Source of the DNA: Weissella confusa
Lineage (GTDB): Bacteria; Bacillota; Bacilli; Lactobacillales; Lactobacillaceae
Assembly (NCBI GenBank): GCA_014332815.1
Contig: JACSZT010000009.1
Coordinates: 1 to 54,155, forward strand
Reading direction: 5' to 3'
DNA length: 54,155 nt
Shown here: one piece after another, positions 1-54,155 of the stretch
How positions within the stretch are numbered: the stretch's first letter is position 1
Layout of the letters: each line of letters opens with the position of its first letter
Translations under genes and position numbers: made by a program
Notes under the pieces: generated by a model
Databases searched by the model: none
What the model saw: only the letters and a program-made list of their open reading frames with translations
Told to the model about the DNA's origin: nothing

Positions 1-2376
1 AGTTGACTAAGACGAAGGCTGATTTGCAAACAATTGCCAATGAATTTGCAAAGCAAGGCTACAAGATTGTTTCAGTCGGCGATGTGCCAGGCGTATTTGA
101 CAACGATGATAAGACTGACCAAGCCGTAGACATCCACTTGACGCACCGCGTGGACACAGTTGATCCAAAGACACCTGGTGTGCCAGATCAACCAATTTCA
201 AATGACATCCCAGGCTACACGTTTAGTTACGTTCATGGAGTCACTACTGGTGTGTACGGACCGGCAAACGAAACGACGTCAGTAATCTTTTATTACAAAG
301 CTGATCCACAAGCGGTAGAGTACAACGTTATTGATGACACTGATCACAAGAACTTGGTATCAAATGCATTGTTCGAGGAAGGTGTTACTGCTGGCGCCTC
401 TACTTTGGATACGTATGACGTAAACGGAAATAATCTAGCTAATTGGGGTGATAAGGATGTCACTACGACGCCTGATAAGCAAGACTACAACGGACAGGCG
501 CGATTGGTGGTGTCATTCCTTGATGATAAAGGCCATGTTTTGGCTCCTGATGATTCGAGCCTAGCCAAAAGTGGGGTTGGGTACACCAAGACATCTGATG
601 TGCTTAACAATGTTGAGTTCACAAAGTTTTTGAAAGATGGCAATAACCAAGGACTTCTGACCGATTCACAGCTTAACCAGTTGAAAACGAATATTGCACT
701 AGCATCTGCTGGCAAGGATTCAGTAGGTATCGGTGCTATTGCCCACATCTTTAATGTGAACTTTGCAAGTAACGACACGCCGAATGAAGTTCCCGACGTG
801 ACGTTGAATATTGGTAAAGAAATTCAAATTAATTTGGATGCTAACATTGACGGCCTCACTGCCATGGAGAGTGCCGTAGCTAAGTCATTGAAGAACAAGG
901 GCGTTGGTTCTTACGCTATTGTGCAACTTAAAGATGGTAGTTATATCGTTGCTTACAACATTGGGAACCCCTACACGGATTACTCAACCCGTGCCTTATA
1001 CAGTGGTGATACAAAGAGCGCGAAGAACGATGAGACGGGTTCATTTAACCAGGATATCGTTCAAATTCAACACATTGTCATTGAACAAGGTACCGTACGT
1101 TCAGTATCACTTGATCGTACGTACACGAGTTTATACGTTCCGATGACTGATAAGAATGGTAATATTGTTGCCAGTGCGGTTTCGGCCCCGCCCGTAGCAA
1201 GCTCAGCGATTTGGATGAACAAAAAAGGTTCTGCAACAATCACTTTTGGAAACGCAGCAATTAAGGGTAAGTTAGAATTTACGGTACAACCCAAGGCAAC
1301 AAATGGTGCATCAGCTACGCAAAAGTTGAATACTGCGAGTGATAAAATCGGTGTACAGAGTTCATTCCAAGACAACAATTACTTACCAGGTGAAATGTCT
1401 TCAGACGTTGCAGGTGTTGCAAAACAAAAGTTCGACGTTCGTGAAACCCAAGGCACGTTGATGAACGGCAATGTAGCGTTGGGAACGTATACCATCGCTG
1501 ATGGGTATTTCTCTATCAAGTTGACACAAGACTTGTTCGGAACTTCAATAAGCGGTTTAACTATCTCAGGTACAAGTGGTAGTACTGACGTTCAAACAAC
1601 GGTCGAGGCAGAGATTACTGGTGCAGTAAATGCTAATGGTGAAGTCATTGCGAACGGTGGTAACTTCACACAATCTGATCAATGGAGCACAGCTCGTGTA
1701 GATAATGGCTATTCTGTAACGGTAACCATTCATAACGAAAGTGGTAAGTATAAGAATGGTGATACGATTCGGATTCCAATTCCTACGACACCTGTTGCAG
1801 CTACAACAGAAGTTTCTACGGATAAAGCAGTGACGGATAAGCCTGCAGTTCAACCACAAGCTACAACTCAAGCACCAGCGCAATCAACAACAGCGCCGGT
1901 AGCTGATACTACGCAAGATAATGGACAACAAGCTACGACCGACACAAATACGGCGCGTACTTGGGATTATGCGACTGATTATCAAGTGTCAGATGCACAA
2001 GTTGAACCAGCTAAAACAGCTGTGTCAACCCAACCAGACCCAAGTGCAGCAACTGGGGCAGTTGTGACGCCAACTTCTGCAACGTTGACCACCACAGATG
2101 CAACGACGACAGAAAACGCTGACCAAGAAGCAGCTGCTAAGCCGGTATCAACCCCGGCAGCTACGACGCCTGTTGCACCCTAACATTACCTTTATATTGC
2201 GGGTTTAGACCCGTCGAGTGAAGGAAGAGGTAATGGGTTTATGAAACGAGTAGTTGTAAATATGGCAACGAGTCGAAAGGAACGCTTCAAGCTATACAAG
2301 GCAAAGAAGCGTTGGCTAATCGCCGGATTGGCATTTGCTGGGGTAGCAATGATGTCTGGTGGACAAGTGAGCGCGT
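1..2376 (+). CDS. Adhesin, N-terminal part, MucBP-like domains (runs off left edge)
   Basis: True start is ATG 2241, after a GGAAGAGG ribosome site; the gene then reads units 1981-2178, 1783-1980 and so on down to 1-198 and leaves the window. About 770 residues are visible. The N-terminus carries a KxYKxGKxW-type signal (KLYKAKKRW) and a hydrophobic stretch ending near VSA. Next comes a Thr/Pro/Ala-rich linker, then beta-rich adhesion domains (a TVTIHNESGKYKNGD segment), then MucBP-like repeats (YNVIDDTDHKNLV, AKQGYKIVSVGDVPG). Inferred role: secreted, cell-wall adhesin binding mucus or matrix. The C-terminal anchor is not in the window. In window order positions 3-2183 form one open frame, but that frame is a reversed chimera of this gene. 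Confidence 0.85.
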
Positions 2377-2772
2377 CAGTGCTAGTAGGTGTATTTATGA
2401 AAATGGGGTATTGCGATAGCCTATTGAAAGCCAGTTGTGGTGCCGATTAAGCCAGTTTATACCTGATGTTTTTACTGATAGAATGCGATTTTTTGTCGCA
2501 TTCTATTTTTTTATGCGTTCGATAATATGTTCATTTCGGCCCCAAAAGACTGTGCTCAAATTGGCCCGTTCGATAGTTGGCTTGTGCTGGTGGTTAGATG
2601 CCAAGCTTGGTTGGTCAAGAAAGCTGTTGCAGGCAAAGAAATAGCAGAATTCGAAAAAATAAAAAATATTGTGTTAGGTCTGCGATTTATGCAATGAAAT
2701 TGCAGGCTAAGAAAATGTTTTAGTGATTTGGTATTTGTTTTTCGGACTATCACCTGTATTTGCGTTTGAAAA
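2377..2772 (+). ncRNA. Possible structured RNA between PAP2-like gene and adhesin
   Basis: In natural order about 230 nt lie between the PAP2-like stop (2642-2644) and the terminator at 2478: 2645-2771, then 2377-2477. I find no convincing gene there. It can form a stem CTGCGATTT / AAATTGCAG (2682-2710) and pairing between GGACTATC (2745-2752) and GATAGCC (2415-2421), which meets only after the lattice is undone. A terminator follows. It may be a small RNA or leader; I do not recognise a family. Confidence 0.25.
2478..2512 (+). terminator. Rho-independent terminator upstream of the left adhesin
   Basis: Stem ATAGAATGCGA / TCGCATTCTAT followed by seven T, wholly inside one unit. In natural order it lies between the PAP2-like gene and the adhesin start at 2241. 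Confidence 0.85.
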
Positions 2773-3564
2773 ATCTGTGAATGTGTTTGGATCATTCCCA
2801 AGTTATCACAATACTTGGGCAGCCTTAGCCGTCTTTTTCGGTGTTGTTGCGCTTCGTGAACACCGATCTGTTTTGGGGGTTATCTGTGTGGTATTTGGCT
2901 TGTTGATTACGTTAAGTACGTTCCTGTTGCACCAACACGCTGTTTTGGACGCCGTCTTCACCTACGCGCGAGTTATGGCTTGGTTTGCAGGCCGAGAACG
3001 ATTGTTTTGGCAGTACTTCACGGTGAGTTCGCTGGTTTACGTGATTTCGACAGTGATTTATGCCGTGATGCCAACGGTGACGATTCCGCACGACTTTTTG
3101 GTCGGTCCAATTCAAGTGTTGTCAAAGGACAGTGCATTTTATAGTCAAATTGCAGTGCTTGATTCATGAATTGTGGGACTGTTTTTGTTTGTATGGGCGA
3201 TTGAATCGTTTAGCTACTTTGTTGTGGCAACTTGGGCTGGTGGCGTGCACGGTGGTGTCGCTTCAGCCGTAAATTTGCAGTTAGGCATTGACCGCGTCAT
3301 ACCATGGTTCACGCCGATTTTTGCACTGTATATGCCTTTGCCATTTATTTGGATTATTTTGTGGCAACTTCCTAGAATTGGACGTTAAGTCAAACTAATC
3401 ATTAATTAATATGAAAGCCAGGCAATTTCTTGCCTGGCTTTTTTGCATATAAAAGCACCATTCGATAATTGTTCACAATGCCGTGATAACCTGTGTTTGA
3501 TGAAGATGATAGGGGGAAATATCATGACGAGTTTTAAACAGGTTTGGCATGCGAAATGGCCAAT
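2575..3564 (+). CDS. PAP2-like (Aur1/PAP2_3 type) membrane phosphatase family protein
   Basis: Start ATG 3524 with AGGGGGAAA ribosome site; units 3169-3366, 2971-3168 and 2773-2970 follow; stop TAG 2642-2644. The total is 705 nt, 234 residues, in frame. Several membrane segments are visible (IVGLFLFVWAIESF; FIWIILW; GVICVVFGLLITL). The pair FPSYHNTW and LHQHAVLDAV resembles the PSxH and H..D motifs of PAP2 phosphatases, so it probably acts on a lipid phosphate or transfers a phospho-head group at the membrane. Substrate unknown. It follows glyS after a strong terminator, so it is likely transcribed separately. Confidence 0.75.
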
Positions 3565-5742
3565 AAAAGGCTTTGTTCGAAGCTGTTTCACCAGTTGCTG
3601 AAGTTGCAGAAACGGATGCTAAGTTGGTTGCTTTGTTGAACTTGCAACCAGCCGTTGCCGCTTACTTCGACGAGACAATGGTCATGGTCGAAGACGAAGC
3701 AGTTAAGAACAACCGTTTGGCTACGTTGCACGCTGTTGCTAACGAAGCTACTAAGGTTGCTCGTGACATCATCAACGCCGTAACAAAGAACGACTTTGCT
3801 GATACGACACAAATGTTCGAATCAGCGCAAGTTTTGGCAGCTCACGTGGCTGACGATAACTTCCGTGAAGGCGTTGAAGCGTTGACGCGTGTCATGCGCT
3901 TGACGACGAAGAACGCAACTGACGCTGTTGTTGATGTAACGTTGTTCGAGAACGATGCTGTAAACATCTTGGCCGACAACAAGTGGGAGTTGGACATTGA
4001 CGGTATCTTGTCAGACTTGATTGATGACATCAACGCTGATGCTGCAAAGTTTGGTTTGCCAGAAGACGTTATGGCTGAGTTGCAAAACAATGTGGCTGCT
4101 GTTGTGAACTTCTTGACTGACCGTGTTGTGAAGGCGTTGCAAGATGATGGCGTTCGTCAAGATGCTGCCGTGGCCCAAGCAATCCGCGAACACTACATGC
4201 CAATCTCAGCTGATGGTGAATTGCCAGCATCAGATTTGGGTAAGGTTTTGGCTTTGGCTGACAAGTTGGATAGCTTGTTGTCATTCTTCGCCGGTGGTAT
4301 GGTACCATCAGGTTCAACCGACCCATACGCTTTGCGTCGTGCCGCTTCAGGTGTTCGATCAGTTGCTGCACACACGCGCCGTGCCAAGGCTTTGGCTGCC
4401 ATTATCGCCGGTCGTTTGAACTTCTCAGCTGACCAACAAACAAAGTTGGCTCGCGCTGGTGAGATTTACAAGTTCGACTTGATGACTGGTATGGTCGGTG
4501 AGTTCGACGAATTGCAAGGTATCATGGGTGAGAAGTACGCCAACTTGTTTGGTCCTAACGGTGCTTTGTTGCCACACTTCATCTCAGTTCGTAACGGAAA
4601 CGCTGAACACATCGACAACGTGATTGCCGGTAACGAGAAGGTGTTGGTTGCTCGTTTGGAAGACGCTAAGTTCTTCTACCACGAGGATCAAAAGCACGAT
4701 ATCGACTTCTACAACAACAAGTTGGAAGTTGTTTCATTCCACGCTAAGTTGCGTGCACAAGTGCGCCAAATCGCTGCTGACAACAACTGGCAAGTGGTTG
4801 TTGACGATGATTTGCTTGAAGAAGTTAACAACATCGTTGAATACCCAACGGCCTTTGCTGGTGGCTTCGACGAAGGTTACTTGGAAGTTCCTGACGAAGT
4901 ATTGATTACGTCAATGAAGGAGCACCAACGTTTCTTCCACGTGGTTGATGGTCCAATTCGTTGGATGGTTGCATTGTTGGATGATCAAGTTGTGCCATTT
5001 GATATTTTGGGTGTTGCAACTGGTCGTTCATCACGTGGACACCGCTTCTTGGGTCACGATGTTGAAATCGCATCTGCTGACAAGTACGAAGAAGCTTTGA
5101 CGTCTGTTTTCGTGCAAGCTGATGCTGAAGCACGTAAGGAAAACATCGAAGGGTTCGTACGTGGTCAAGGTATGACGACAGACGACATCACGTTCAAGGA
5201 ATTTAACGGTAACGAATACGTTTATGTGACGAAGTTCGAAGCTGGACAACCAGCAGCTGCTGTTTTGGCAGGCTTCAAGTCAGTTGTTGAGGCAATGACG
5301 TTCTCAACGACGATGAAGTGGGGTCGTCACACATTCGAATACGTTGAATTGGTTGAGCGTGCCGAAAACTTTATGAAGGATGAGCGTTTGGCTTACGAGT
5401 CAATCAAGCCATTCTCAACGCCACGTCGTTTGGCAGTTTTGATTTCAGGTGTGGCTGAAAAGGCTGAAGACTTCACTGAAGAAGTAAAGGGACCTGCTAA
5501 GAAGGCTGCTTTGGACGCTGAAGGTAACTACTCAAAGGCTGCCGTATCCGTAACATGGCCCGTTCAGTTGCGCGTGCCTTCATTGATGAGCGTAAGAAGC
5601 TTGGTTTCCCATTGTTGAAGGACGAAGCTTTGCGTGCGAAGTACTTGCCTGCAGATGAGGAGGAGAACTAAGATGGCTAACTTTTTGCTAGAAATTGGTT
5701 TGGAAGAAGTTCCTGCCCACTTGGTTACGCCCGCAATTAACC
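3367..5742 (+). CDS. glyS: Glycyl-tRNA synthetase beta subunit
   Basis: Charges tRNA-Gly with glycine as an alpha2beta2 enzyme with GlyQ in the cytoplasm. True start ATG 5673, one base after the glyQ stop; ten full units 5347-5544 down to 3565-3762 follow; stop TAA 3396-3398. That gives 2082 nt, 693 residues, normal for the family. N-terminus [15 protein letters not shown], then [37 protein letters not shown], the HD-like [20 protein letters not shown], and C-terminal [12 protein letters not shown]. Seam residues match the family only when the 198th base is taken as unflipped (R in VRPIRW, G in KLGSV, E in FGEDAAV). In window order 3573-5618 reads as one open frame, but backwards by blocks. 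Confidence 0.95.
3414..3444 (+). terminator. Terminator after glyS
   Basis: AAAGCCAGGCAA / TTGCCTGGCTTTTTT hairpin, 15 nt after the glyS stop (3396-3398), inside one unit. Confidence 0.9.
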
Positions 5743-6732
5743 AGTTTACTCATTCGAAGAGTCAGACCAAGAAATGTTGTTGCGTCACTTTAACGAGTAC
5801 GAAGCTGAAGCCAAGAAGGCCTTGGAAAAGGGCTTGGTTCACCCAGCTTACGACTACATTTTGAAGTCATCACACACGTTTAACTTGTTGGACGCGCGTG
5901 GAACGGTTTCAGTTACTGAACGTGCAAAGTACCTTTCACGGGACGGTATGGAAGTGACGCAATTTACGTACTTCCAACAAGTTGGTGGAATCCAAGTTGA
6001 TGCCGTAACATCAGAAATCACGTATGGTTTGGAGCGTTTGGCTTCATACATCCAAGACGTGCCAACGGTTTATGATTTGGAATGGGGTAACGGCGTTTTG
6101 TACGGTGACATCTTTAAGGAGCCAGAGTACGAGCACTAGGATAACCCAAACCGTTTGTACCAACACCACCAATTCCAAGTGGTTATGAAGCCATCACCTG
6201 ACAACATCCAAGAATTGTACTTGGATTCTTTGAAGGCCTTGGGTATTGATCCTTTGGAACACGATATCCGTTTCGTTGAAGATAACTGGGAAAACCCTTC
6301 AATGGGTGCCGCTGGTATCGGTTGGGAAATCTGGTCAAAAATGAGTGTGCAAGACATTATTTTGACGTTGCAAAAGTTCTGGGCTGATCAAGGCGCAATG
6401 CTAATGGAAGCCTACGATACAGAAAAGGGTGCCGGTACGATGAGCCCTTACACGTTCCTACGTGCCAATGGTCCTGAGCCATGGAACGCAGCTTACGTAG
6501 AGCCATCACGTCGTCCAGCCGATGGACGTTACGGTGTGAGGGTGATCTGAAAACACGCAAGGGGCACTGCCGGAGCACAATTTAATCCAATGAAGCTGCT
6601 AGGAGTTTTCCTAGAAGTAGGGTGGAACCGCGAATTATCGTCCCTACATCAATCATTTTTAAAGGTGATTGGTGTAGGGCTTTTTATTTGCTCGAAGCCA
6701 ACCACGAGAAAGGAATTTGTCAATATGAGTGT
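5545..6732 (+). CDS. glyQ: Glycyl-tRNA synthetase alpha subunit
   Basis: Catalytic subunit partner of GlyS. Start ATG 6725 after AAAGGAA; units 6337-6534, 6139-6336, 5941-6138 and 5743-5940; stop TAA 5669-5671; 927 nt, 308 residues. Visible motifs: [61 protein letters not shown]. If unit ends are joined naively, an in-frame TAA falls at 6138/5743; with the unflipped-base rule that codon is TCA and the gene is open. It overlaps nothing and is followed after 1 nt by glyS. It is preceded by a T-box leader, so it is controlled by uncharged tRNA-Gly. Confidence 0.95.
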
Positions 6733-6738
6733 ATGATA

Positions 6739-6770
6739 GACTGGCAACATTTTGTTGTCAGTCTTTTTTA
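6739..6770 (+). terminator. Terminator after pnuC
   Basis: GACTGGCAACA / TGTTGTCAGTC stem plus T6. In natural order it starts about 8 nt after the pnuC stop (7124-7126), once the seam 7128/6733 is joined. Confidence 0.88.
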
Positions 6771-8118: not shown

Positions 8119-8910
8119 CGAAAATCGTATGAACGCAAATCCACGCTCAGTTCGTATCTTGTCACAACTTGCGAAGGTTGATTTGAAGCAACTGGGCACG
8201 TTAAGTTTAAAAGACGAAACAAAACAAGATATGGCGCGCGTGATGGACAAGCTATATGATGATCAAGTTGGTGTTCATTTGCGTGCAAAATCATTTATCC
8301 AACAGTTATCAGGCTTGGCCAAGCTGGCACTGGAAAAGTTGGAGGAAGGGCTTGATCCACAAGGCTTAGCGAACTACTTTGAAGTGCAACTGCTACCGGC
8401 GTTTGGATTAAATCCAACTTGGGGTGAATGCGCCGTTTGTGGTCGTCGAGATTTGCCACTTGATTTTTCTGAAAAGCTAAACGGCACGATTTGCCAGATT
8501 CACTGGGACCAAGCTGTTCAACCGATGACGATTGCAACTTTCGAAGGCACGCTAAATCAAACGGGATTGAGTTTCATCAATTCGGTTAAAGAGAGTCACC
8601 ATTCGCGTGAGTTGATGATGGATGTTGAAAAGAATGCCTACATGACATACATTCTGGGATTGATTGACGCAGCGTTTGTTGATAATCAACCAATCGAAAA
8701 ATGGTTCAACTTTTTAATGATGTGAAAGAGAGACTGATTGGTCTCTTTTTTATTAGGAGGCGGCATGGCGGAAGTATTTGAAGCGATTGTCATGTATCAA
8801 CGTGACCACAAAGAGAAAGACTTGATGGTTAAAATGCTGACTAAAACGGCCGGCAAACGCATGTTTTACATCAAAAATGGTAAGTCTAAGCGCTACCAGT
8901 TTGCTGCAGT
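7921..8910 (+). CDS. recO: DNA repair protein RecO
   Basis: RecO loads RecA by displacing SSB in the RecFOR recombinational repair pathway. Start ATG 8765 with TAGGAGG ribosome site; units 8515-8712, 8317-8514 and 8119-8316; stop TAA 7979-7981; 801 nt, 266 residues. N-terminal OB-fold segment ([16 protein letters not shown]), then a helical domain with the zinc-binding CAVCGR and C..H part (ICQIHW) near the middle. It follows era after a small terminator, the usual order in this group. Every seam is in frame. Confidence 0.9.
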
Positions 8911-9900
8911 TTGAGCGTCCAACGCAAAAGAACATCGTTATCGGTAAGCAAGGTGCAATGATCAAGGAAATTGGTGTTCGTGCTCGTAAGGATATCGAAC
9001 GCTTGCTTGGTGACAAGATTTTCTTGGAGACGTGGGTTAAGGTTGAAGAACGTTGGCGTGATAAGCCACAAGCCTTGCAAACGTACGGTTACAAGGAAGA
9101 TTCAGATCACAAGATGGAAGAAGGACCACAATACTACCCAGCTGACCAAATCACGGACCACCCAGAGCGTTTCATCATGAGTGAGTTGATTCGTGAGAAG
9201 GTGCTACAATTGACGCGTCAAGAAGTGCCACACTCAGTTGCCGTTGTGATCGACAAGATTGAACGTCAAGATGAGAACCACTTGCACGTGCAAGCAACGA
9301 TTGTTCGTGATGACTTCATCATCAACCGTTTGAAGGACACAAACACACCAGTTTACTTGATCATCAACAAGATTGATTTGGTAAACCCATCAGACTTGTT
9401 GGCAATCATTGCTGATTACAGCCAACAAATGGAATTTGCGGAAATCTTCCCAATTTCAGCTTTGAAGGGTGACGGTGTGCCAGAGTTGTTGGACTTCGCC
9501 ATGCCAAAGGCGCAAACGACACGAAACAAGATCCAAGGAATTTACACGACAGATGAAGGTCAAATCGTGTTCATGGACACACCAGGAATTCACAAGCCAC
9601 ACAACTCATTGGGTGACTTCATGGTGAAGACGGCGATGTCAGCTTTGCGTGAAGCCGACATGGTTTGGTTCTTGGTTAACGCCGACGAGCCACGTGGTGC
9701 TGCATTTTGCCAAATTTGCAGATGATTATTAAATAAGTTAGTTGTACGCGCGATGCGTGGATTATAGAAAGAATAGAGAATAATATACATGAGTGAACAA
9801 GGATTTAAGTCAGGTTTCGTTGCCCTAGTTGGTCGTCCAAACGTTGGTAAGTCAACGCTTTTGAACAAGATGATTGGTGAAAAGATTGCCATCATGTCAT
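8713..9900 (+). CDS. era: GTPase Era
   Basis: Essential GTPase that binds the 3' end of 16S rRNA in 30S assembly. Start ATG 9789; units 9505-9702, 9307-9504, 9109-9306 and 8911-9108; stop TAA 8715-8717; 909 nt, 302 residues. G1 GRPNVGKST, switch [13 protein letters not shown]3 [11 protein letters not shown]4 INKID, then the C-terminal KH domain with [12 protein letters not shown]. The stop codon appears only after joining 9107 to 8713. Sits between dgkA and recO as in related genomes. Confidence 0.95.
8725..8752 (+). terminator. Short terminator between era and recO
   Basis: AGAGAC / GTCTCT stem with T6, directly after the era stop at 8715-8717 and just before the recO ribosome site; may attenuate rather than stop recO. 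Confidence 0.7.
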
Positions 9901-10296: not shown

Positions 10297-10890
10297 TTGG
10301 CGAAGAACATTGGTGACATTATCGTTTCTGTCGATAAGATTGGTGAACAAGCGGAATACTTGGAACACTCATATGAGCGCGAACTAGGATTCTTGGTTGT
10401 GCACGGTTTCTTGCACTTGAATGGTTACGACCACATGCGCAGTGATGAAGACGAAAAGATTATGTTTGATTTGCAACGTGAGATTTTAGATAGAGTTTTG
10501 GACTATGCTGGTGAGTATATGAAGTTGCCAGCAGACACTGAGATGTCAGTAACATTCGTTAACAATGACGAAATTCAACGTTACAACCGCGAATACCGTG
10601 GATTGGACAAGCCAACTGACGTCATCTCATTTGCCATTGAAGAAGATGGTGATGATTTGCCATTGATGATGGATGAAGAGATGGCCGAGGACAGTTCGCA
10701 GCGGATGACGTTGTGCGTCACCCAGTTGTTGGAGCAATTATTAATGCATACGACGCCTTTGATGCAGCCCAAGAAAAGGCAAAAGAAGCAAAAGAAGCAA
10801 AAGAGAAGAAGGATTAAGATTATGGATTTGGCAATTATTGACCAATCAAAGCCTGGCGTTCCTGCCGAGCAAATTGACCTTGTTGAAAAC
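10099..10890 (+). CDS. ybeY: Endoribonuclease YbeY (16S rRNA maturation)
   Basis: Single-strand endoribonuclease for 16S 3' maturation. Start ATG 10822, 4 nt after the phoH stop; units 10495-10692 and 10297-10494; stop TAA 10114-10116, overlapping dgkA. 483 nt, 160 residues. Zinc motif [11 protein letters not shown] and the [12 protein letters not shown] segment are visible. Seam 10691/10297 gives EDLAKNIGD in frame. Confidence 0.95.
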
Positions 10891-11880
10891 ATAATGCCTT
10901 TATCATTTTGGATGAAGCGCAAAACACGACGCCACAACAAATGAAGATGTTCCTAACTCGTTTGGGGTTCGGTTCGCACATGGTTGTAAACGGAGACGTT
11001 TCACAAATCGATTTGCCAAGCAAGGTGCGTTCAGGCTTGATTCAAGCTCGCCGTGTTTTGGTAAATGTGTCACACATCGAATTCATTCTCATCACGCGTC
11101 CTGCAGTTGAAGCTGGTGAAAGCCTTGGTTTCTTGCCAGGTGATTTGAAGGAAAAGGTTGATCCTTACCTACGACCAATTTACGATGCGTTGCACGCTAT
11201 TTTGGGCGCTGAGCATACGGAACGTTTGATGGATCGTGGTACGATTGAAATTGCGCCATTGGCCTACATGCGTGGTCGTACGTTGTACATGTACACGGAG
11301 ACGTTGATTCGTGATGCCAAGGGACACCCAGTTCGTGTTAAGAACTATGGTCAACGCCGTTATATTCAAGCGATTCGCAATAACGACATTACGTTTGGTA
11401 TTGGTCCGGCTGGAACTGGAAAGACGTATTTGGCTGTTGTAATGGCCGTGGCTGCTTTGAAGCGCGGTGATGTGGAGAAAATTCTTGAAGAAGGCATGCA
11501 TGTTGCATTGTCTGTGTTTGGGGACCAACTTACGATTAAGGGTGAAGCTGACGCAGTTGATGCTGCTGAAGCAATCGTCGCTGAATTGGCCGCTTTGATT
11601 AAAAAAGGTGTGAAGCTAAACGCAACTGATATCGTCTCAGCGATGAAGATGTCAGAACGTGGGACGTTGGAATACTTTGGTTGGGCTAATCTTAGTCGAA
11701 CTCTGATGCGGGGGATGCCCCCGATACATATCTATTTGCGGTATAATAGTAACCGTAAGAGAATAATTCGAATTAGAGGGATTACATTTTTGGCAGCACA
11801 AGTTGAAAAAGTTTATCGTTTTGAAAATGCTGAGCAAGAAATTGGTTTGGTCGGCGCACAAGACAGTAATTTGAAGTTAA
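10693..11880 (+). CDS. phoH: PhoH family ATPase
   Basis: Cytoplasmic ATPase of the PhoH/PhoL family, linked to RNA metabolism. Start TTG 11790 after AGAGGG; units 11485-11682, 11287-11484, 11089-11286 and 10891-11088; stop TAA 10815-10817; 1008 nt, 335 residues. Walker [12 protein letters not shown], Walker [21 protein letters not shown], and a lysine/glutamate-rich tail. A TATAAT (11742-11747) lies upstream, with no clear -35. First gene of the phoH-ybeY-dgkA-era set. Confidence 0.95.
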
Positions 11881-12474
11881 AGGTCAAATCGACGTTTTGA
11901 AGCGTTACATGCCTGAGCAAATGTCAGAAGAAGAAGTCGTTGCCGTTGTTAAGGAAACGATTGCTGAAGTTGGTGCATCATCAAAGGCTGACTTGGGTAA
12001 GGTTATGGGTGCTTTGATGCCTAAGGTTAAGGGTAAGGCCGACGGTAAGTTGGTTAACCAAACTGTACAATCATTGTTAATGAAGGCTAAGGACAAGGTT
12101 ACTTTGGGCGTTGTTCGTATGGTAAAGTCTTCAGTTTCTAACGAGCAAATCAAGTTGGGTCACGACTTGACTGCTGACGAAGAATTGGCTGTTTTGTCAC
12201 GTGAAATGAAGCAACGTGTCGAAGAGTTGGAATCATACAAGGATGCTGATCGTGAAGATTTGGCTGAAGAAATCCGATCAAGCCATCAGTACAACGTAAG
12301 TTGAAGGCTGAGGCCGCTCGTAAGCGCAAGAACAAGAAGAGCCGTTAATTCGACTCTTGCCGGGCTACCTGCTGGTGGTCCGGTTTTGTTTTATACTCAG
12401 AAATTATTCAAAAACAAAAAGGAGATAATGACTATGAGTTTGTTGGAACAATTGACTAACGACATGAAGGAAGG
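11683..12474 (+). CDS. yqeY: GatB/YqeY domain protein
   Basis: Start ATG 12434 after AAGGAGA; units 12079-12276 and 11881-12078; stop TAA 11687-11689; 444 nt, 147 residues. Helical YqeY protein ([17 protein letters not shown], then [18 protein letters not shown]) with the tail domain that GatB uses to contact tRNA; function of the stand-alone form is not settled. Lies between rpsU and phoH, the common order in Firmicutes. Confidence 0.92.
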
Positions 12475-15246: not shown

Positions 15247-17226
15247 ATTGTTGACGACTTGGGCTTGACGGCGCCTGTATACGCCGACATTGAAGCACCA
15301 AACATGTCAGAAGAATAATTAGATAATTAAAGCGCACGTTTGCACTATTTTGCGAACGTGCGCTTTTTTATTTGTCAATCGAAATTCCTATTAATAGTAA
15401 GTATATGTGTTTCGAAAATAGCACACCCGAGATTGTCGTATTTTGCGCACGACGCATTTGGCTTCTTGCTTGAAGGTATGGAATACGGCTTCCCACCAAT
15501 GGGTGGAATCGCCCTAGGATTGGATCGTTTGGCTATGTTGTTGGCCGGACGTGACAACATCCGTGAGGTGATTGCGTTCCCTAAGAACTCAAAGGCAACT
15601 GAGCCAATGACGGAAGCGCCAACGCCTGTTGCGAAGGCACAAGCTGCGCACCACCCATTCACAATGCCAAATGAAGAAGATTTGCCATTGTTGGAGACGA
15701 CGGAAGGTGCTCACCAAGCACACGCCCAATCATACGACCTTGTTTTGAACGGATACGAGTTGGGTTCAGGTTCAATCCGTATTCACCGTATGGACATCCA
15801 AGAGAAGATGTTGTCAGCTCTTGGCTTCACTAAGGAAGCATTGGCCCAAACTGAAGCTAAGGCTGGCGACTTGATTTTGTTTGCTGCTGATTCAGAAGGT
15901 GTTGTGTCAGCAACGTTGGATGCTTTGCGTCGTATGACAGCCAAGGAAATGGACTTGATTGACAACAGCAAGTGGGCTTTCGCTTGGGTTGTTAACTGGC
16001 CATTGTTCGAGCACCAAGCTGAAGAAGATCGTTGGATCAACGCGGTAAAGAACGGTGGCCAAGTAAAGGCTATCGTTGTACCTGGTGGTGCTGATCACTA
16101 CTCACGTAAGGACATTGATAAGATGGCCCAATACATCGAACGTTTCGGTGCCAAGGGATTGGCTTGGTTGAAGGTGACTGATGAAGGTATCACTGGACCA
16201 ATCGCCAAGTTCTTGACGACGAAGGGTGACGATTTAATGGCATTGGTTAACGAATGGGTTGCCGCTATCATGAAGAAGACGGTTGACGTTGATTTGGATA
16301 CGGCCCAAATTCCAGTATTGGATTACGCTGATTCAATCAAGCGTTTCGGAACTGACAAGCCTGACATGCGTTTCGGCATGGAATTGCAAGATTTGTCAGA
16401 GTTGATGGCTGATTCAGAATTTGGTGTCTTTGCGCCATCACGTGTTTACCCTGGTTCATTCTACGCATTGCCACAATCACCACAATTGTTTAAGCAATTG
16501 TTGATGGGTGCCGGCTTTGACCGTTACTACCAAGTTGCCCGTGCCTTCCGTGACGAGGATTTGCGTGGTGACCGTCAACCAGAATTTACGCAATTGGACG
16601 TTGAGACGTCATTCATGACGCAAGACGAAATTGATATCAACGTTTCAGACGAATTGCGTTTGAAGTACCGTTACTTGGATTTGCGTCGTCCTGAGATGCA
16701 AAAGAACTTGCGTATCCGTTCAAAGATTACGGCTGCAACGCACGAATTCTTGGATGCCAACGGTTTCATCGACATCGAGACGCCATACTTGGCCAAGTCA
16801 ACGCCAGAAGGAGCTCGTGACTACCTAGTGTCAGAAGAATTTGGTGCGGATGCTTTGTCAGTTGCTGAAAAGATGCGTTCAGAATTCGTTATCGAGGTTG
16901 AAGGTGTCGTTCGTTCACGTGCAGAAGGTGCGGTTAACGACAACTTGAAGTCAGGTAAGATCGAAGTGCAGGTGGCTAAGGCAACGATTTTGTCAGAAGC
17001 TAAGACGACGCCATTCTATATTGAAGAGCCCAGAGTTTATTGAAGTTGAAGAAGACGTAGAAGAGGAAAACTAATTATGAAGCGTACTAACTATGCTGGC
17101 TTGATTGATGAAGCCTACCTTGATCAAACTGTCACGCTACAAGGATGGGTGCAAAAGCGCCGTGACTTGGGTGGTTTGATTTTCGTTGATTTGCGTGACC
17201 GTGAAGGTATCGTTCAATTGGCCTTA
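15247..17226 (+). CDS. aspS: Aspartyl-tRNA synthetase
   Basis: Start ATG 17077, 2 nt after the hisS stop; eight full units 16831-17028 down to 15445-15642; stop TAA 15316-15318; 1806 nt, 601 residues. OB-fold anticodon domain ([20 protein letters not shown]), class II motifs [44 protein letters not shown] insert domain, and C-terminal [11 protein letters not shown]. Seam 16829/16435 reads LVPSRV exactly. In window order 15340-17043 is an open frame, but C-terminus first. Confidence 0.95.
15329..15369 (+). terminator. Terminator after aspS
   Basis: AAAGCGCACGTTTGCA / TGCGAACGTGCGCTTTTTT hairpin, 11 nt after the aspS stop (15316-15318). Confidence 0.92.
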
Positions 17227-18612
17227 CCGTTCATTTGGTTACAGCGCAGAACGCGATTACCAAGATCGTAAGCTAAAGGCACAATTTAAGACGGCCGACA
17301 AGCTTGGCGCACGTTTCATCATCACGATTGGTGAGCGCGAATTGGCTGAGCAAACGGCGAACTTGAAGAACATGACAACTGGTGAAGAAATCACGGTGAA
17401 GTTGGCTGAACTTTACACGGGTCATGGTCGTTACAACGGTTTGGTTGAAGAGTTCGGCGGACCTGAAATGCCAGGTGTTGGATTTGGTATCGGACTTGAG
17501 CGTTTGATGTTGTTGCTTGAAGCTGAGGGTGCAACGTTGCCTGAACAAGCACCATTGGATGTTTACGTTGCAAACATGGGTGAAGGTACTGATGTTGCGG
17601 CTATGCAAATGGTCCAAGCAGCGCCATCAATCTTGGATTACTTGACGGAAGATGCTCAAGCACACTGGGAAAAGGTGCAAGCCTACCTTGAAGCAATGGG
17701 AATCGATTACGAAGTTGATGCCAACGTTGTCCGTGGTTTGGACTACTACAACCACACGATTTTCGAGGTTATGACACAATCAGCTGCGCTAGGTCATGGT
17801 TGGACGACAATCACTGGTGGGGGTGTGACAAACTTGAAGGTTAAGATCAACTCTTTGGGTGACAAGGAATCACGTGAAAACTACCGTAATGCCTTGATTG
17901 ACTTCTTGAAGCCACACTTTGATGAGTTGTCTGCTGACTCACAAACGCGTTTGGAGAAGAACCCATTGCGTGTCTTGGATTCAAAGGATGAAAAGGATCA
18001 AGCAATTGTTGCTGATGATGTTGAAAACAAGTTGTTTGGACCTGAGCACCAAAAGCCATACAAGATGTTCTACATCGGACCAATGTTCCGTTACGAGCGT
18101 CCACAAGCTGGCCGTATGCGTCAATTCCACCAAATCGGTGTTGAAGCATTGGGTTCAGATTCACCTGCTTTGGATGCTGAAGTTATCGCAATGGCAGTTG
18201 ATTTGTTCCAAACGTAAGAGACGGCGCGCCTTTTGTTCGGCGACTACCAATACTCAGAAGTGCGTACGCCGATTTTTGAAAGCTTTGATGTTTTTGCCCG
18301 TTCTGCTGGTGATACATCAGACGTTGTGACAAAGGAAATGTATGACTTCAAGGACAAGGGTGACCGTCACGTTGCTTTGCGTCCAGAAGGTACTGCCGGT
18401 GTTGTTCGTGCGTTGGCATGAGACCAAATTCAAGGTGGTACCGCGCTAAAAGGCGCCCTTGACGATACATGAAGTGTCGTTGAGGGCGCCTTTTCGTTTT
18501 GCACCATCGGAAACATGAGAGGAATTTTAAACATGGCTAAGCAATCATTCCAAAAGCCAAAGGGAACTGCTGATTTGCTCCCTGGTGAATCATTGAAGTG
18601 GCACTACGTTGG
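17029..18612 (+). CDS. hisS: Histidyl-tRNA synthetase
   Basis: Start ATG 18533; units 18217-18414, 18019-18216, 17821-18018, 17623-17820, 17425-17622 and 17227-17424; stop TAA 17072-17074; 1314 nt, 437 residues. Motif 2 [69 protein letters not shown], and C-terminal anticodon domain ([14 protein letters not shown]). With naive joining a TAG appears at 18216/17821; the unflipped-base rule gives TTG, leucine. Cotranscribed with aspS, behind a T-box leader. Confidence 0.95.
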
Positions 18613-20790: not shown

Positions 20791-21186
20791 CAAGTTGGCG
20801 ACCTGGCCCATTGCGATGAAGCAAAGGGCATTGACCGCCCGTTCATTGGGAAGGTCGTACGCTGTGAGGGGCAGACGTACGATATGGAAGTGGTATACAT
20901 TCCGGATTTGACGCATGCGAATGCATCGTTGTTGCACACTCAGGTTCAGGTGGCCAAAACAGCTTCAGCACCATTTGCCAATAAGGCTTCAGAGGATCGT
21001 GAGTTTGATATCTCAGCTGATCCAGCTAAGTTTGTGTTGGCTGGTTTGAAGGATCAACAACGCCAATACGTGGCACACTAACTCCGAGAAAAAATCAATA
21101 ATTATGCGTGGCTTCATCAAACGCGCTGGGTACACTAATCGCAAAGACTAGTACAGGGGGAAGTGCCTATGCAAGATTATGAGTTA
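20593..21186 (+). CDS. Small hypothetical protein, 77 residues (DUF2187-like?)
   Basis: Start ATG 21169 after AGGGGGAAG; unit 20791-20988; stop TAG 20608-20610; 234 nt. The core IDRPFIGKVVRCEG resembles small SH3-like DUF2187 proteins that carry a RPFxGKV segment, but this is a resemblance only. No signal peptide or membrane helix. Lies between mvaS and the deoxyribosyltransferase, same direction. Confidence 0.65.
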
Positions 21187-22374
21187 TCTGAAGACCTAGC
21201 TGCGGGTGACCGTTTGGGAATCTTCTCATATGGATCAGGTGCTGAAGGGGAGTTCTACTCAGCTATTTTGCAACCAAACTTCCGTGATGGTTTGATTGCT
21301 GGTCAAATGGACGCTTTGTTTGAGAAGCGTGAGTATTTGACGATTCCAGCTTATGAGGAAGTGTTTATGGCTGGTTTGCACGGGGACTTTAAGGCCTACG
21401 CATTCCACTTGCCATTCACAAAGATGGGCTTGAAGGCCTTGCGTGACATTTTGCCTGAGGCTGATGAAGCTAAGCAAGCGGACTTGTTGAATGAATTTGA
21501 AGCAAGTCGTGTTTACAACAAGCGCATTGGTAACTTGTACACAGGTTCAGTTTACTTGAGCTTGTACTCATTGTTGGCCAAAATGTTGGTTACTGAAAGC
21601 CCACGCATTCTTGAATTGAACCGCGACAACCAATTCATGTCACGTGATGTGATGGATTTCTGGCGTCCAGTTTATGCTGAAGAAGCGTTGGTTGACGGTA
21701 AGTACTCAGCTGAAGTTTACCGTGAGTTCTTCCGCGATTTGTGGTCACGTTACAAGGAGAAGACAGGTCGTTCAATCAATCGCTTGTTGGGTTTGAATGA
21801 ATATGCACGCACAATCGAAATGAAGCAAGCTTGCTATGCTGGAACGTACGGTTTGATGCAAGCACGTGACTACGTTGCCTTGCACCCAGGTTCAAAGGTG
21901 TTGGTCATGGCATCTGATATTGCCCGTTACGGTTTGCACACACCAGGTGAAGTGACGCAAGGTGCCGGTGCAGTGGCTGAAGAACCAGATAAGTACTTGA
22001 TTGGTATTGGTGAAACAGAACAAGCTGTTGTGCCACCTACCCAAGATGTTGTCACAATGGCAGCTAATGCAGCTGATCAATTATTGACAGCTGAAGAACG
22101 CGCGGAAATTGACACGATTATTTTTGCCACTGAATCAGGTATTGATAACTCAAAGTCAGCTGCCGTTTATGTACAGGTAACGTTGCTGCAACGAAATGCT
22201 GCGCCAGAAAAGTTGCCACTCCAATCTAAGCTAGCGTTGGCCCGTGATATTATGAATCGCATTGCATCACAAGTGGAAGGAAAATAAGAAATGGCAGTTA
22301 TTGGAATTGATAAGATGAGCTTTTTCTCACCACACCAATATATTGATATGGTGGATTTGGCAAACGCTCGAAAC
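20989..22374 (+). CDS. mvaS: Hydroxymethylglutaryl-CoA synthase
   Basis: Second enzyme of the mevalonate route: acetyl-CoA plus acetoacetyl-CoA to HMG-CoA. Start ATG 22291, 3 nt after coaBC; units 21979-22176 down to 21187-21384; stop TAA 21079-21081; 1167 nt, 388 residues. Shows [27 protein letters not shown], the catalytic cysteine in [19 protein letters not shown], and [15 protein letters not shown]. Lactic acid bacteria use mevalonate for isoprenoids, which fits. Confidence 0.95.
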
Positions 22375-23562
22375 ATTGATTTAGTTGAAAATCCAGACAT
22401 CTTAGCGACTTTGGGTCAGCAAAAGACCACCCAATATTTAGTTGGGTTTGCGGCTGAAACGCAAGATTTGTTGACGTATGCGCAAAATAAACTAGAAAAG
22501 AAAAATGCGGATATGCTAGTTGCGAATGATGTGTCAAAGGCTCAAGTTGGATTTGGACATGACACAAATGACGTATCATCATCTGAGTTGCCAGCACCAG
22601 TTGGCGTTACGATGGTGCCGGTTCAATCAGCGCGTGAATTGTTGGCAGCGATGACGGAGCGTTTTGACGATACCGATGTGGCTATCATGGCTGCGGCTGT
22701 GTCTGATTACCGTGTTGCGACACCGGCAGATCAAAAGATGAAGAAGAACGCTGATCACGCTGGCTTGACACCAGATGAAATTTTGGCACTTGCCGATTTG
22801 AAACTCCGTCAACAGACTGGTCGCTTGGCCGGCAAGAAGGTGGTTGTTTCCGCAGGTGGTACGGTTGAGCCAATTGATCCAGTTCGATTCATTACGAATC
22901 GTTCATCAGGTAAGATGGGATATGCATTAGCACAAGCAGCAGCGGAGCAAGGCGCCGATGTGACACTTGGGGATGACGCGGCGTCATCAGTCTTGTTGGC
23001 TCGTCACACGCCAGTCATTGTTGCACCGGCTATGAATGTGAATATGTACGAAAACCCAGCGACGCAACGCAATCTAAAGACGTTACGTGAAGATGGCGTT
23101 ATCATCATTGAACCAGCTGAAGGCATGCTTGCGGAAGGCTATGCTGGTAAGGGACGTTTGCCTGAAGTTGTTATGACCCAGGCTGCAACAGAATTTGTAA
23201 CCCCAAAAACATTTGAGGCACTAACGCAACACCCGGTTGTGACCGATTTATTTGATGCCCACAATGAAAGTATGATTGCGCACGTCAGTCTAGCTGATTG
23301 GGCAGACTATATTTTCGTTGTGCCGGCAACTGCCAACATTTTGGCGAAGATGGCAGCTGGCATCAATCAGAGATATCACTCTCTTTTTATTTGTGGTCGC
23401 GCTTCATGGTAAACTTAAATCAGATGAATTTTTAACTAGATGCAAAGGAGTGTCGAAATGTTTACTGATAAAAACATTGTGCTCATCGTCAGTGGGGGCG
23501 TTGCAGCATATAAGTCAGCCATTTTTGCCCGCTTGTTGATGAAGCAAGGTGCAAACGTCAAT
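22177..23562 (+). CDS. coaBC: Bifunctional phosphopantothenoylcysteine synthetase/decarboxylase
   Basis: Two steps of coenzyme A synthesis. Start ATG 23458 with AAAGGAG; units 23167-23364, 22969-23166, 22771-22968, 22573-22770 and 22375-22572; stop TAA 22285-22287; 1206 nt, 401 residues. CoaC half: [36 protein letters not shown]. CoaB half: [36 protein letters not shown]. Likely one operon with mvaS. Confidence 0.95.
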
Positions 23563-36432: not shown

Positions 36433-36465
36433 GAAATTGTTTGATGATTACTTCGCTAGAAGTAA

Positions 36466-36537
36466 TAGCCCATCAGGGAGTCGAACCCTGGATGCCGGTG
36501 TGAAAAACCGGAGTCTTAACCGCTTGACCAATGGGCC
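36466..36537 (-). tRNA. tRNA-Glu (UUC), copy 1
   Basis: Read on the minus strand: GGCCCAT acceptor, anticodon loop TTTTCAC with TTC in positions 34-36, GGTTCGACTCC T arm, ATGGGCT closing strand with A as discriminator. 72 nt, wholly inside unit 36433-36630. A G1-U72 wobble closes the acceptor stem. Confidence 0.95.
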
Positions 36538-36580
36538 ATGAAACTTTGTTAATTGCTTACCGCTCTTAACAACAGATAAT

Positions 36581-36609
36581 AATATACCAGATGGATATTT
36601 ATCATGCAA
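36581..36609 (-). promoter_or_regulatory. Promoter of the tRNA cluster
   Basis: On the minus strand TTGCAT (36609-36604), 17-nt spacer, TATATT (36586-36581), upstream of tRNA-Glu copy 1, inside one unit. Confidence 0.65.
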
Positions 36610-36648
36610 CACCTAATTTCAAAAAAAGTAACTGGATGTCTAACATGA

Positions 36649-36720
36649 TAGCCCATCAGGGAGTCGAACCCTGGATGCCGGTGTGAAAAACCGGAGTCTT
36701 AACCGCTTGACCAATGGGCC
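36649..36720 (-). tRNA. tRNA-Glu (UUC), copy 2
   Basis: Same sequence as copy 1 over its 72 nt as far as I can read it; inside unit 36631-36828. In restored order on the transcribed strand it is third in the cluster: Glu-1, Glu-3, Glu-2, Ser. Confidence 0.95.
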
Positions 36721-36754
36721 ATGAAAATGTTGAATGCCTAATCGACAAAGGCAA

Positions 36755-36826
36755 TAGCTCATCAGGGAGTCGAACCCTGGATGCCGGTGTGAAAAACCGG
36801 AGTCTTAACCGCTTGACCAATGAGCC
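36755..36826 (-). tRNA. tRNA-Glu (UUC), copy 3 with compensated acceptor stem
   Basis: 72 nt on the minus strand. Acceptor strands are GGCTCAT / ATGAGCT instead of GGCCCAT / ATGGGCT: the C4-G69 pair is changed to U4-A69 on both sides, so pairing is kept. Anticodon TTC. Confidence 0.95.
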
Positions 36827-36859
36827 ATAGTACGTTCTACAATGTACTACTTAAAGAGA

Positions 36860-36948
36860 AGGAGCCAACGGGATTTGAACCCGTGCGCCGGCTCAACACC
36901 GGTTCGGCGGATTTCGAGTCCGCTGCATTACCACTCTGCCATAGCTCC
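36860..36948 (-). tRNA. tRNA-Ser (CGA)
   Basis: 89 nt on the minus strand: GGAGCTA acceptor with TTGGCTCC, anticodon stem GCGGA / TCCGC with loop CTCGAAA (anticodon CGA), long class II variable arm, GGTTCAAATCC T arm. Inside unit 36829-37026. Confidence 0.94.
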
Positions 36949-49000: not shown

Positions 49001-49698
49001 AAGGGTTTAGCAATGCCGTTGCTTTGGGTTTGGACTTTTATGGTTCTAATTCTGGTGATCCGGCAGCTGGACCATTTGGATCTCTGCGTCGAACTGATGC
49101 TAGTTGGTCAGCAGAGGCATCAAGCGTCACCGACCCAGCTGGTCAAACGTATGCAAAGTTGACGGCCAATGTTAATAACACTAGTGGTTATTACTACCTA
49201 AATCGTCAGTTTGATACAAGTAAGTCGTTTACGATTACCGGTTATTTTAAGGCGTCTACTTCGACGTCTACTCAAAATCTACAACCAGATGGTAAGTGGT
49301 CAGTTGCCACGGTTGAACCTGAAATTTGGTATGAAATAGGTCATGAAATTCATGAGGTATTAGCCGCGCCTGTCGTATCAACGACCACGATTGATCAGGT
49401 GACGGATGTTAATGCGAACCGAACAGTTAATTGGGCTGCATCTGACGTGAAAACGCACGGTGAATACGCCGGCGCAGGTAAGTATGATTCAACAACCAAT
49501 TGGCTAGTAACCGTAAACGTCTATCTGACCTGGTATTCTGGCACTGGAAAGGGAGAATATTGCAAATTTGTGATGTTGTCTTGCTTAGAAAGTATTGTTT
49601 GGGGAATAACAATGGTAAAAACAAAAGATAGGAAGAAAATGTACAAAAGTGGCAAATTTTGGGTTGCCGCTGGGCTAACCGCAGCCACAGTAGGTGGT
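37027..49698 (+). CDS. Giant LPYTG adhesin 1: lectin, beta modules and Ala-rich repeats; frameshifted
   Basis: Start ATG 49612 after TTTGGGGAA; 62 full units 49303-49500 down to 37225-37422; stop TAG 37151-37153. The sum is 12490 nt, one base over a multiple of three; about 4162 residues if corrected. Order: KxYKxGKxW signal (MYKSGKFWVAAGLTAA), L-type-lectin-like domain (GGGGLGIQGFSNAVALGLD), a long array of modules with GYTYTVTGPDGSVYSNLSAA, then alanine-rich helical repeats (PVSNE ... DALTADI), the sorting signal GVLPYTGYHDDW, helix LGIFMFSANLLFVA and KRRKKDE tail. One extra T in the run at 39984-39987 shifts the frame (true DAFKNLQDL). Sortase-anchored fibrous adhesin by inference. The 3272-codon frame 39994-49812 in the window is a block-reversed chimera. 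Confidence 0.87.
37163..37201 (+). terminator. Terminator of giant adhesin 1
   Basis: AAAGAGGCTTTGAGAC / GTCTCAAAGCCTCTTTT hairpin, 9 nt after the stop at 37151-37153. Could work in both directions. Confidence 0.92.
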
Positions 49699-51480
49699 GT
49701 GGCCATTTGGTCAGTTGCTGTGCTGGTATTTGTTGGCTTAGTTTACCTTGGTATGCGTTGGGCAAAGCAGCCACAAGCTGCTGAAGTCAACGACGATATT
49801 GAAGAGAAGTAAATAGATGACAAAGCATGCTGATGACAGCATGCTTTTTTTGCCCGGTTGGTGAATTTAAGACAAAAATCATTCTAAAAATGCCCAACCG
49901 CAGCACCGGCTAAGCAAACGCCAGCCGCAGCTAATGCAACGTTGCACCACGGCGCAGCGAGTGATCCATTACATGGACCGCTTGAAGTCGATATGCCGGT
50001 GAAGTCAAAGACGACGGCGAAGGCACCAGCTAAGGACGCTAAACATGAGAATGCCTTCCTAAAGCGTGCAGCCGGCTTGAGTACCCAAGCTGTTGCGACT
50101 GGTGAATTGACTGTCCAAACAACGCCGGCACCAGCACCAAACAATGGTGGGGGAACCACACCAACGCCTGTGCCAAGTACACCAGTGACACCAGCAACTG
50201 TGACGCCGACGGCAACGCCTGTGACGCCAGCAGTGTCGAGGGCGGTTGTGGCATCAACGCCAGCAACGACAACTGCAGCCCCTCAAACGGCTAATACTAC
50301 CAAGTTGGCAGCTGAGAAGATTAACCCAACCGATTTGTACACCGCAGGTAATGGACAACCGGTGACGGTATCGATTAGTCAAAACGGGTCGGATTATACG
50401 ACCTTTAATGGTGGTGAGCTGGCAGCTGGTCAATATAGTGTGAAGGTTAGCCAACCTGCAAATGTTGACAAGGGCGTGTTTGGTGGCGACTTGTCAGGCG
50501 ATTTGGACAAGATAATTGGGGCGACATCATGGCGTGTCGATTATGATCAAAACGATACGGACTGGAGCGATGCGGCAAATTACAGCACTCGCCCATTGTC
50601 ATTGAAGGGACCAAATGGTGAGACGGCAACTCGTATCGAGGTTTCAAGTGTGCCGTTAGCGTTTAAAGCAAATAATTTGGCGGTTGTAGGCATGGCTAGC
50701 GAGATGCAACTTGAAGGAGATTTTGCTAAGCCAGTGACCTTGACACATAAGGATGGTAGCAAGGCTGTGCCAACTATCACGCTTGGAAAAGATGATGCGA
50801 CCCGTTTGAATCAATTGATTTTGGCAGGCAAGTCGACGGATAGCGTTGTTGGTGGGGATACCATTATTTACAACCCAGAACGTGTTGCTGGTGTAACGTT
50901 GAATCCAAATGGCGATGGGGCGTCAATTGTTTCAACTGGCAATCAACAAACGCACCTTTACTTCCAAGGTGAAAAGCCTTCAGTGGTAAAGGGTGCGTTG
51001 CAAGGAATCACGACGGTAACTGGGGCTGCCAGTTTGTTGGGTGGGTCTCGTGACGCATTGGCTGTCTACGCAGAGGACACGCCCGCAATGTTAGCGACTG
51101 TAATCGTACCCTTTGCCGGTCTACTTACATTACCGACAGCACAAAGCGTTTCGGCGGCAGATTATGGGGTGAAAATCTCTAACGGAACGCAGGTGCTATC
51201 AAACATTGATGGCACGGTGACCTTTGCAGGGGGAACTGTTAAGCAAACGAAAACAGCCGATGGCCAGGTGAATTTGTATTTCACAGATCACTTCCGGTCT
51301 GTGGTGGTCGTCTTTTTGTATACTTTCGACTATTCCGTGAATTGTGTGAACGTTTTATGAATTTAAGGGTTGTCACGTGAAATACAGAGCAAATGGCATT
51401 ATTCTATTGTTACAAATTAGTTACGGATACTTTTAGAAGAGGTGGGGACAATGGAAAAAGTGACTAGGTTATTTAGAGGG
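49699..51480 (+). CDS. Surface protein with Thr/Pro stalk and C-terminal membrane anchor
   Basis: Start ATG 51451 after GAGGTGGGGA; seven units 51085-51282 down to 49897-50094; stop TAA 49810-49812; 1530 nt, 509 residues. Signal peptide (ATVIVPFAGLLTLPTAQSVSA), beta-rich extracellular part (LSNIDGTVTFAGG; VTVSISQNGSDYTTFNGG), then a stalk of TPxPVTP type repeats, KAPAKDAKH, and one helix SVAVLVFVGLVYLGM with an acidic tail. No LPxTG. Family not recognised; possibly part of the WxL-type surface system. Position in the window 49942-51360 is open but in reverse order. Confidence 0.8.
49822..49851 (+). terminator. Terminator of the anchored surface protein
   Basis: AAAGCATGCTG / CAGCATGCTTTTTTT hairpin, 9 nt after the stop at 49810-49812. 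Confidence 0.92.
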
Positions 51481-53460: not shown

Positions 53461-53856
53461 AAGCTTCTTGGCGAGCACTGTGCTTAATCACCCAAACTAA
53501 GAAAAGGGGTTGTTCGAATAGCCAAACGATGTGACGAGCTGAGTAAGTGGTCGTTTGACCAGTTACTGGGTTTGGCTTAACCGGTGCGGCTAGTTCTGGC
53601 GTGACAGCTGCCAAAGTATCAGCCTCAGTATCGAATGTTTCCTCAATCTTCTTGCGGTTGACGGAGACCGGTGCTGATTCATTCACGCACTCATCAAAGG
53701 AATTGCGTATTATCGATTAAACAAAATAGGATGGTACCTTGATTTTTTCAAGATACCATCCTATTTTTTAGTGCCAGTTATTAATGATTGCTTCGGCGTT
53801 TTCTTCAGTATCGGCAACTTCAGAACGTGTCTTTTCAGCCTTCAACAAAGGTAGCT
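53263..53856 (-). CDS. Hypothetical protein, 131 residues
   Basis: Minus strand. Start ATG 53371-53369 (45 nt after the NTF2-like stop), to 53263, unit 53658-53461, then 53856 to stop 53770-53768; 396 nt. Contains [19 protein letters not shown] near the start, a mid-part with [20 protein letters not shown] and an acidic end [12 protein letters not shown]. Not recognised. Naive joining at 53856/53461 gives an in-frame TAG; the unflipped-base rule gives TTG, which supports the rule on this strand too. Converges with pepQ on a shared terminator. Confidence 0.7.
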
Positions 53857-54155
53857 GTGATATTATTACAAAGGCTGGCTACGGCGAGTACTTCGTGCAC
53901 CGTCTTGGTCACGGTATCGGCTCATCAGTCCACGAATCAATTCAAATTGCTACAGGTAATGATTTGATTTTGCAACCAGGTATGGCGTTCTCAATTGAGC
54001 CAGGTATTTACATTCCTGGTGACTTGGGTATTCGTATTGAAGACTCAGTTGTCGTGAAGGCTGGCGATTTGGCGTTGTTCGACTTGGGAACGATTTACGA
54101 CGGTTACGTTTCAGACGCCACCCGTACAGTTGCCTACAAGTCAGTTTCAGATCAC
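53659..54155 (+). CDS. pepQ: Xaa-Pro dipeptidase, C-terminal part
   Basis: Metallopeptidase that splits X-Pro dipeptides. Visible in natural order: 54055-54155, a gap of 96 nt lying beyond the window, unit 53857-54054, then 53659 to stop TAA 53718-53720. Metal ligands are seen in [18 protein letters not shown] (two Asp), HRLGHGIG (His), EPGIYIP and IRIEDS (Glu). The missing 32 codons equal exactly the part of the last 197-nt unit that is cut off, so the lattice continues past the right edge. The N-terminal domain is outside. Confidence 0.92.
53723..53769. terminator. Bidirectional terminator between pepQ and the minus-strand gene
   Basis: AAAATAGGATGGTACCTTGA / TCAAGATACCATCCTATTTT long hairpin with A and T runs at both ends, between two converging stop codons. 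Confidence 0.92.

Follow-up and report, generated by a model that had tools for sequence, protein, structure and literature searches.

Tiled 197-base inversions in a Weissella confusa contig, most likely an artefact of assembly processing

The first 54,155 bases of contig JACSZT010000009.1 in Weissella confusa assembly GCA_014332815.1 (the window; the contig, C24 below, has 260,369 bases) carry a lattice of period 198 in which, as tile-by-tile alignment to relatives reveals, 197 bases stand reverse-complemented in place and the 198th is unchanged. The observation is real and exact; most likely it reflects an assembly-processing artefact and not a real biological feature. Very probably, the window lies in a piece that software was due to reverse-complement whole and that it reverse-complemented block by block, with the order of the blocks left unreversed. 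In the cell itself, we predict, the DNA follows the order of ordinary W. confusa.

Geometry and coverage of the lattice

1..54155, strand (.): lattice of 198-base tiles with base 198k kept; 273 full tiles plus the first 101 bases of the next
54055..54155, + strand: opening 101 bases of a flipped tile that is complete in the contig (54055-54251) and that only the window edge cuts

In blastn comparison with 82 kb of the same-genus genome G003, the window yields 201 matches, on a single strand throughout. Their sizes and positions are highly regular: 179 of them measure 180-219 nt, their starts fall mostly at or near 198k+1, and successive tiles proceed by steps of -198 in G003 coordinates. Per-position identities, given for tile positions 1-7, 190-197 and the flanking ones, place the tile edges to the base. 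Over 181 tiles, identity to G003 is 0.82-0.94 at positions 1-7 and 190-197 and 0.23-0.32, a chance level, outside positions 1-197 (0.24 at position 0, 0.28 at 198). Exactly one base bridges the two tiles in 155 of 172 adjacent pairs, the remaining 17 having been dropped from the count, and base 198k is the complement of the bridging base at 130 of these 155 usable seams. The agreement is tighter with W. confusa DSM 20196 (JQAY01, L003), a closer relative than G003. Among 93 tiles, the sequences match at position 1 in 89 and at position 197 in all 93, as against 22 at position 0 and 21 at position 198, which lie outside the tile. At the seams (91 pairs, 2 dropped), the kept base is the expected one in 87 of 89. 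When alternative geometries were ranked by bit score, the combination of period 198, one kept base and phase 0 came first both among 28 near settings (9897, with 9756 for the runner-up) and among 81 coarse ones. The initial annotation had proposed precisely this arrangement, and seam bases, the drop in identity at tile edges and the ranking all bear it out. The seam bases and the ranking also eliminate a uniform flip of 198 bases without a kept base. The last 101 bases of the window could be taken for a tile truncated at a contig end; this is ruled out by the continuation of the contig, in which the tile is complete at 54251.

The same annotation held that the tiles lack flanking repeats. No inverted repeats were found at tile ends: the two 12-base arms agree at 24.5% of positions, comparable to the 23.7-25.5% given by shifted lattices, and in 0 of 273 tiles do at least 9 of 12 bases pair.

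Counted tile by tile, 219 of the 274 tiles have a match. Of the adjacent tile pairs, 209 out of 215 are anti-ordered at 198, none is collinear only, 4 are both and 2 neither; by matches instead of tiles, 184 neighbours are anti-ordered and 1 is collinear. All blocks are thus turned and their order is kept (209/215 pairs, a scope that leaves out tiles 0-12), with a block size and phase that remain constant regardless of gene content, as befits a block-wise artefact. The remaining unmatched tiles lie between 206 and 249, and the majority of them have reverse-order matches in the DSM 20196 record, with identities of at least 92% for about 31 and of 71-78% for about 6; in window 36001-50000, which holds most unmatched tiles, a few have no match in that record either. 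A 12.6-kb insertion at 37.0-49.7 kb was entertained and rejected. The segment is merely absent from the G003 stretch used, and DSM 20196 carries most of it, likewise flipped. The claim that the tiling spans the whole window therefore holds nearly wherever relatives allow a check, with tiles 0-12 outside the homology test and the window being only part of a larger scramble. Within those first tiles, the start of a protein with what we take to be a KxYKxGKxW-type signal (2241-2400) lies downstream of a 726-aa frame (3-2183) resembling its body. This misplaced start suggests, from the sequence itself, that the order is reversed in tiles 0-12 too.

Flipping the tiles was carried out on the 15-kb housekeeping stretch, 3367-18414. 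As given, it produces 73 matches to DSM 20196, the longest of 212 nt; flipped, it produces two collinear matches, of 11,124 nt at 98.7% and 3,369 nt at 96.9%. The earlier proposal that flipping should restore collinearity with relatives is vindicated on this stretch. Among 21 reference open frames of at least 150 residues, 15 have a match in the flipped sequence; 10 of these agree in size, 2 are off by 3 residues and 3 disagree (51 vs 272, 410 vs 457 and 454 vs 486 residues). In the unflipped sequence, the longest aligned run for the 15 frames is 118 residues.

Genes cut by the tiles

The consequences for coding sequences are best illustrated by glyS, an essential gene, whose profile match is broken into seven pieces in strictly reversed order within one open frame. 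From low to high window coordinate the pieces cover profile positions 411-480, 352-410, 286-350, 218-285, 154-220, 85-152 and 22-90. A profile search found no second glyS match elsewhere in the assembly. In 201 Lactobacillaceae genomes searched with the profile, 199 have a match: one match in 197, two in one, and seven only here. Among the matches listed, those of the other Lactobacillaceae genomes span at least 532 of the 536 profile positions. The genome with two (G048, a single contig with a contamination value of 4) carries a full glyS match close to each end of its contig, which may reflect a circular overlap left untrimmed.

Along the window, glyS and other genes read as follows:

3573..5618, + strand: glyS (glycyl-tRNA synthetase beta), seven profile pieces in strictly reversed order, one open frame
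5774..6550, + strand: glyQ (glycyl-tRNA synthetase alpha), broken up, with later parts ahead of earlier ones
8129..8725, + strand: recO, three matched stretches
8877..9725, + strand: Era-like GTPase, KH domain ahead of the GTPase pieces
10297..10944, + strand: ybeY, matched in two stretches, the first of which covers model positions 80-141 of 146
10908..11900, + strand: phoH, in pieces
15340..17043, + strand: aspS-like gene, class II synthetase core in five stretches, GAD domain
17186..18217, + strand: hisS, anticodon-binding domain ahead of the catalytic core
21163..22287, + strand: HMG-CoA synthase, C-terminal family match ahead of the N-terminal one
22291..23412, + strand: coaBC-like gene (DFP and flavoprotein domains), broken up, with the best DFP piece at the front
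36465..36948, - strand: four tRNA genes (three Glu, one Ser), with tile edges at 36630, 36828 and 37026

The normal domain order in Era, HisS, HMG-CoA synthase and CoaBC is a matter of general knowledge; in Era, the KH domain is C-terminal. A search with the phoH frame in 12 relatives of the same genus gave a match in 11, and in 11/11 the order of the pieces is the reverse of that in the window. The four tRNA genes are intact because each sits within one tile. Two very long open frames, one of 2106 aa at 24966-31286, in which no Pfam match was found, and one of 3272 aa at 39994-49812, are likely to be shuffled long genes and not new giant proteins, since relatives match them mostly as reversed tiles.

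Could a cell carry such DNA? One with at least 1000 phase-exact inversions of 197 bases would be needed, and beyond the fact that the sequence is recorded as such, nothing speaks for it. Against it stand a glyS gene broken without a second match, unlike 198 other genomes, tile ends without inverted repeats, a single phase at the two sampled ends of a 228-kb piece, and other parts of the same genome that are normal. We consider this explanation vanishingly improbable; inversions arising in the cell are ruled out by the glyS split, the Lactobacillaceae survey and the lack of end repeats. The closest biological analogy would be the phase-variable inversion carried out by site-specific recombinases, which likewise inverts DNA in place. 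It differs from the window, where block length is fixed and essential genes are destroyed: the segment ends show none of the inverted repeats that mark site-specific invertible DNA, and glyS, far from readable, lies in seven reversed pieces without a second match.

Extent in the assembly and junctions between pieces

Sampling of about half of the 24-contig assembly (1,158,463 non-N bases) indicated that the scramble reaches well beyond the window. In C24, the lattice keeps its phase up to 60,000, and the stretch from 227,501 to an apparent piece end at 228,756 is in the same phase. Also scrambled in the sample are C15, C18, C19, C12 at its start and its end, and part of C20; what few matches C11 and C14 offer fit this pattern. 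Other regions, namely parts of C12, C13, C20, C21, C22 and C23, are intact and follow the order of the relative, in single matches as long as 10-14 kb, which rules out a scramble of the whole genome. In C1, C9, C10, C16 and C17 matches are too few to judge, and C8 has one longer match of 871 bases. Altogether, 422,887 bases fall in tile-sized matches and 132,835 in matches longer than 400 bases, the rest having neither kind in the partial reference. Mean identity to G003 is 91.7% for tile-sized matches (n = 2044) vs 90.9% for matches longer than 1000 bases (n = 19), a likeness that would be expected of one genome. The initial annotation dealt with the window; the scramble extends past it, other contigs being scrambled too. 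At the start of C12, about 147 bases of the first tile are in common with several other assembly sites, some at contig ends; the shared sequence looks like the end of a mobile element where the assembly broke.

The borders of the scrambled pieces are informative. In C18, the lattice restarts at an internal piece boundary where there is no N. The first piece measures 60,472 bases (305x198+82), and all of its 82 last bases are flipped in their own length, with no base kept. Likewise, the C24 piece measures 228,756 bases (1155x198+66), and of its last 66 bases the 54 that are comparable are all flipped in their own length. Such a short last block, turned by itself, fits a loop stepping by 198.

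At three junctions, in C12, C18 and C24, the affected pieces are those needing reversal to fit their neighbours. In C12, a scrambled piece starts, in true order, at about 20207 of G003 contig 14, and the next, intact piece starts at about 20152 in the opposite direction; the two starts adjoin in G003, so that a correct join would have called for reverse-complementing the scrambled piece first. C18 has two such pieces in succession, the first starting at about 11681 of G003 contig 3 and the second ending at about 11731, which fits if both were due to be turned round. The third junction is marked by a repeat:

164..197, + strand: 34 bases repeated exactly at the apparent scrambled-piece end (contig position 228757), a sequence identity at the join

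This repeat fits the true start of the piece adjoining the next piece, that is, what would have been its last bases had the piece been turned.

These borders bear on the idea that someone scrambled the sequence deliberately, by fixed-block flips, to hide, mark or test it. The great regularity and a period equal to 66 codons would suit such a design. The scramble is nevertheless limited to certain pieces, restarts in C18 without an N, spares long pieces and, at the three junctions, tracks the pieces needing reversal. To a deliberate scrambler of finished contigs, piece borders would be invisible, which disfavours this explanation; it fits worse than an error, and we regard it as unlikely. A scramble added while the data set was prepared, and absent from the public record, is less probable still. 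In its favour, the public record itself was not inspected; against it, many contigs are affected and piece borders inside contigs are followed. Moreover, the stated completeness of 66.51% (2.29 Mb, 24 contigs) fits broken markers, if that figure stems from public metadata.

Origin and consequences

The mosaic of scrambled and intact regions, the lattice restart in C18, the flips of the last blocks and the three junctions lend support to the earlier suggestion of a chunk-wise reverse-complement error. We envision that a reverse complement was run on blocks whose order was then left unreversed. The code would have been a loop stepping by 198 and turning bases i to i+196, as if an inclusive end had been used as an exclusive one (an off-by-one error), and the flipping would have preceded the joining of pieces into contigs. 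In its second scrambled part, C12 has a lattice that counts from the far end; here a scrambled piece may later have been correctly turned when placed in the contig.

Reverse-complementing line by line or block by block is a general programming slip. The window resembles the line-wise form in that blocks are turned in place, their order is kept and a short last block is turned in its own length; it differs in that the plain slip flips every base of a line, whereas the lattice passes over one base in every 198. Real sequence is also put in the wrong orientation by assembly inversion errors at repeats. These consist, however, of one or a few large inversions between repeats, as opposed to some two thousand tile-sized matches here (2044 in the sampled half) and to tile ends in the window without repeats.

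Several points weigh against an error of this kind. The failing step is known by inference only, and we know of no tool with a 198-base block; a search of the literature for such an artefact or for the record, on the surface only, found nothing fitting. Of the 81 coarse settings, 16 give a longer longest match than the favoured one, but fewer bits. Some matches run across seams: one of 544 bases at 74% between window 36001-50000 and DSM 20196, two in G003 of 524 and 533 nt at 71% (seams at 26533-27283), and some in C18 near 76.6-79.5 kb. Those of the window fall in the very long open frames, which may hold internal repeats. No nucleotide relative of tiles 0-12 (bases 1-2574) was found in the records searched. 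In C19, in C20 and in the second scrambled part of C12, the lattice does not count from the contig start, and a later correct reversal or an earlier join is needed to account for this. Finally, the C24 piece was sampled at both ends, up to 60,000 and from 227,501 on, and the junction evidence comes from the three readable ones and not from those in C20 or at the N-run in C12.

For biology the scramble means nothing; its relevance is one of data hygiene. With a block length divisible by three, frames stay open. In scrambled pieces, any gene of more than 66 codons would thus pass in annotation for a plausible long protein, its domains shuffled, and such proteins may enter protein databases as apparent new architectures. 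Such a genome, with a stated completeness of 66.5%, can enter a species collection and may be counted as a separate species. Indeed, the scrambled genome stands as its own species in a one-genome-per-species collection, and one may conjecture that the scramble caused this status. A broader speculation, which we put forward as possible and rather doubtful, is that one faulty orientation step scrambled this and other public genomes, each so thoroughly that comparison breaks down and a ghost species is founded.

The identity of the organism was assessed over tiles 17-117 (n = 101). W. confusa DSM 20196 (JQAY01) is matched by 93 of the tiles at 98.25%, VTT E-062653 by 91 at 92.91% and W. cibaria SP7 by 85 at 83.85%. 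The named records belong to GTDB release 220 and the genome collection to release 232, and joint representatives in one release cannot be claimed. Another record titled DSM 20196 (JAAOED01, L002) is matched by 94 of the 101 tiles at 93.46%; because the tiles match the two records at 98.25% vs 93.46%, one of them may be mislabelled.

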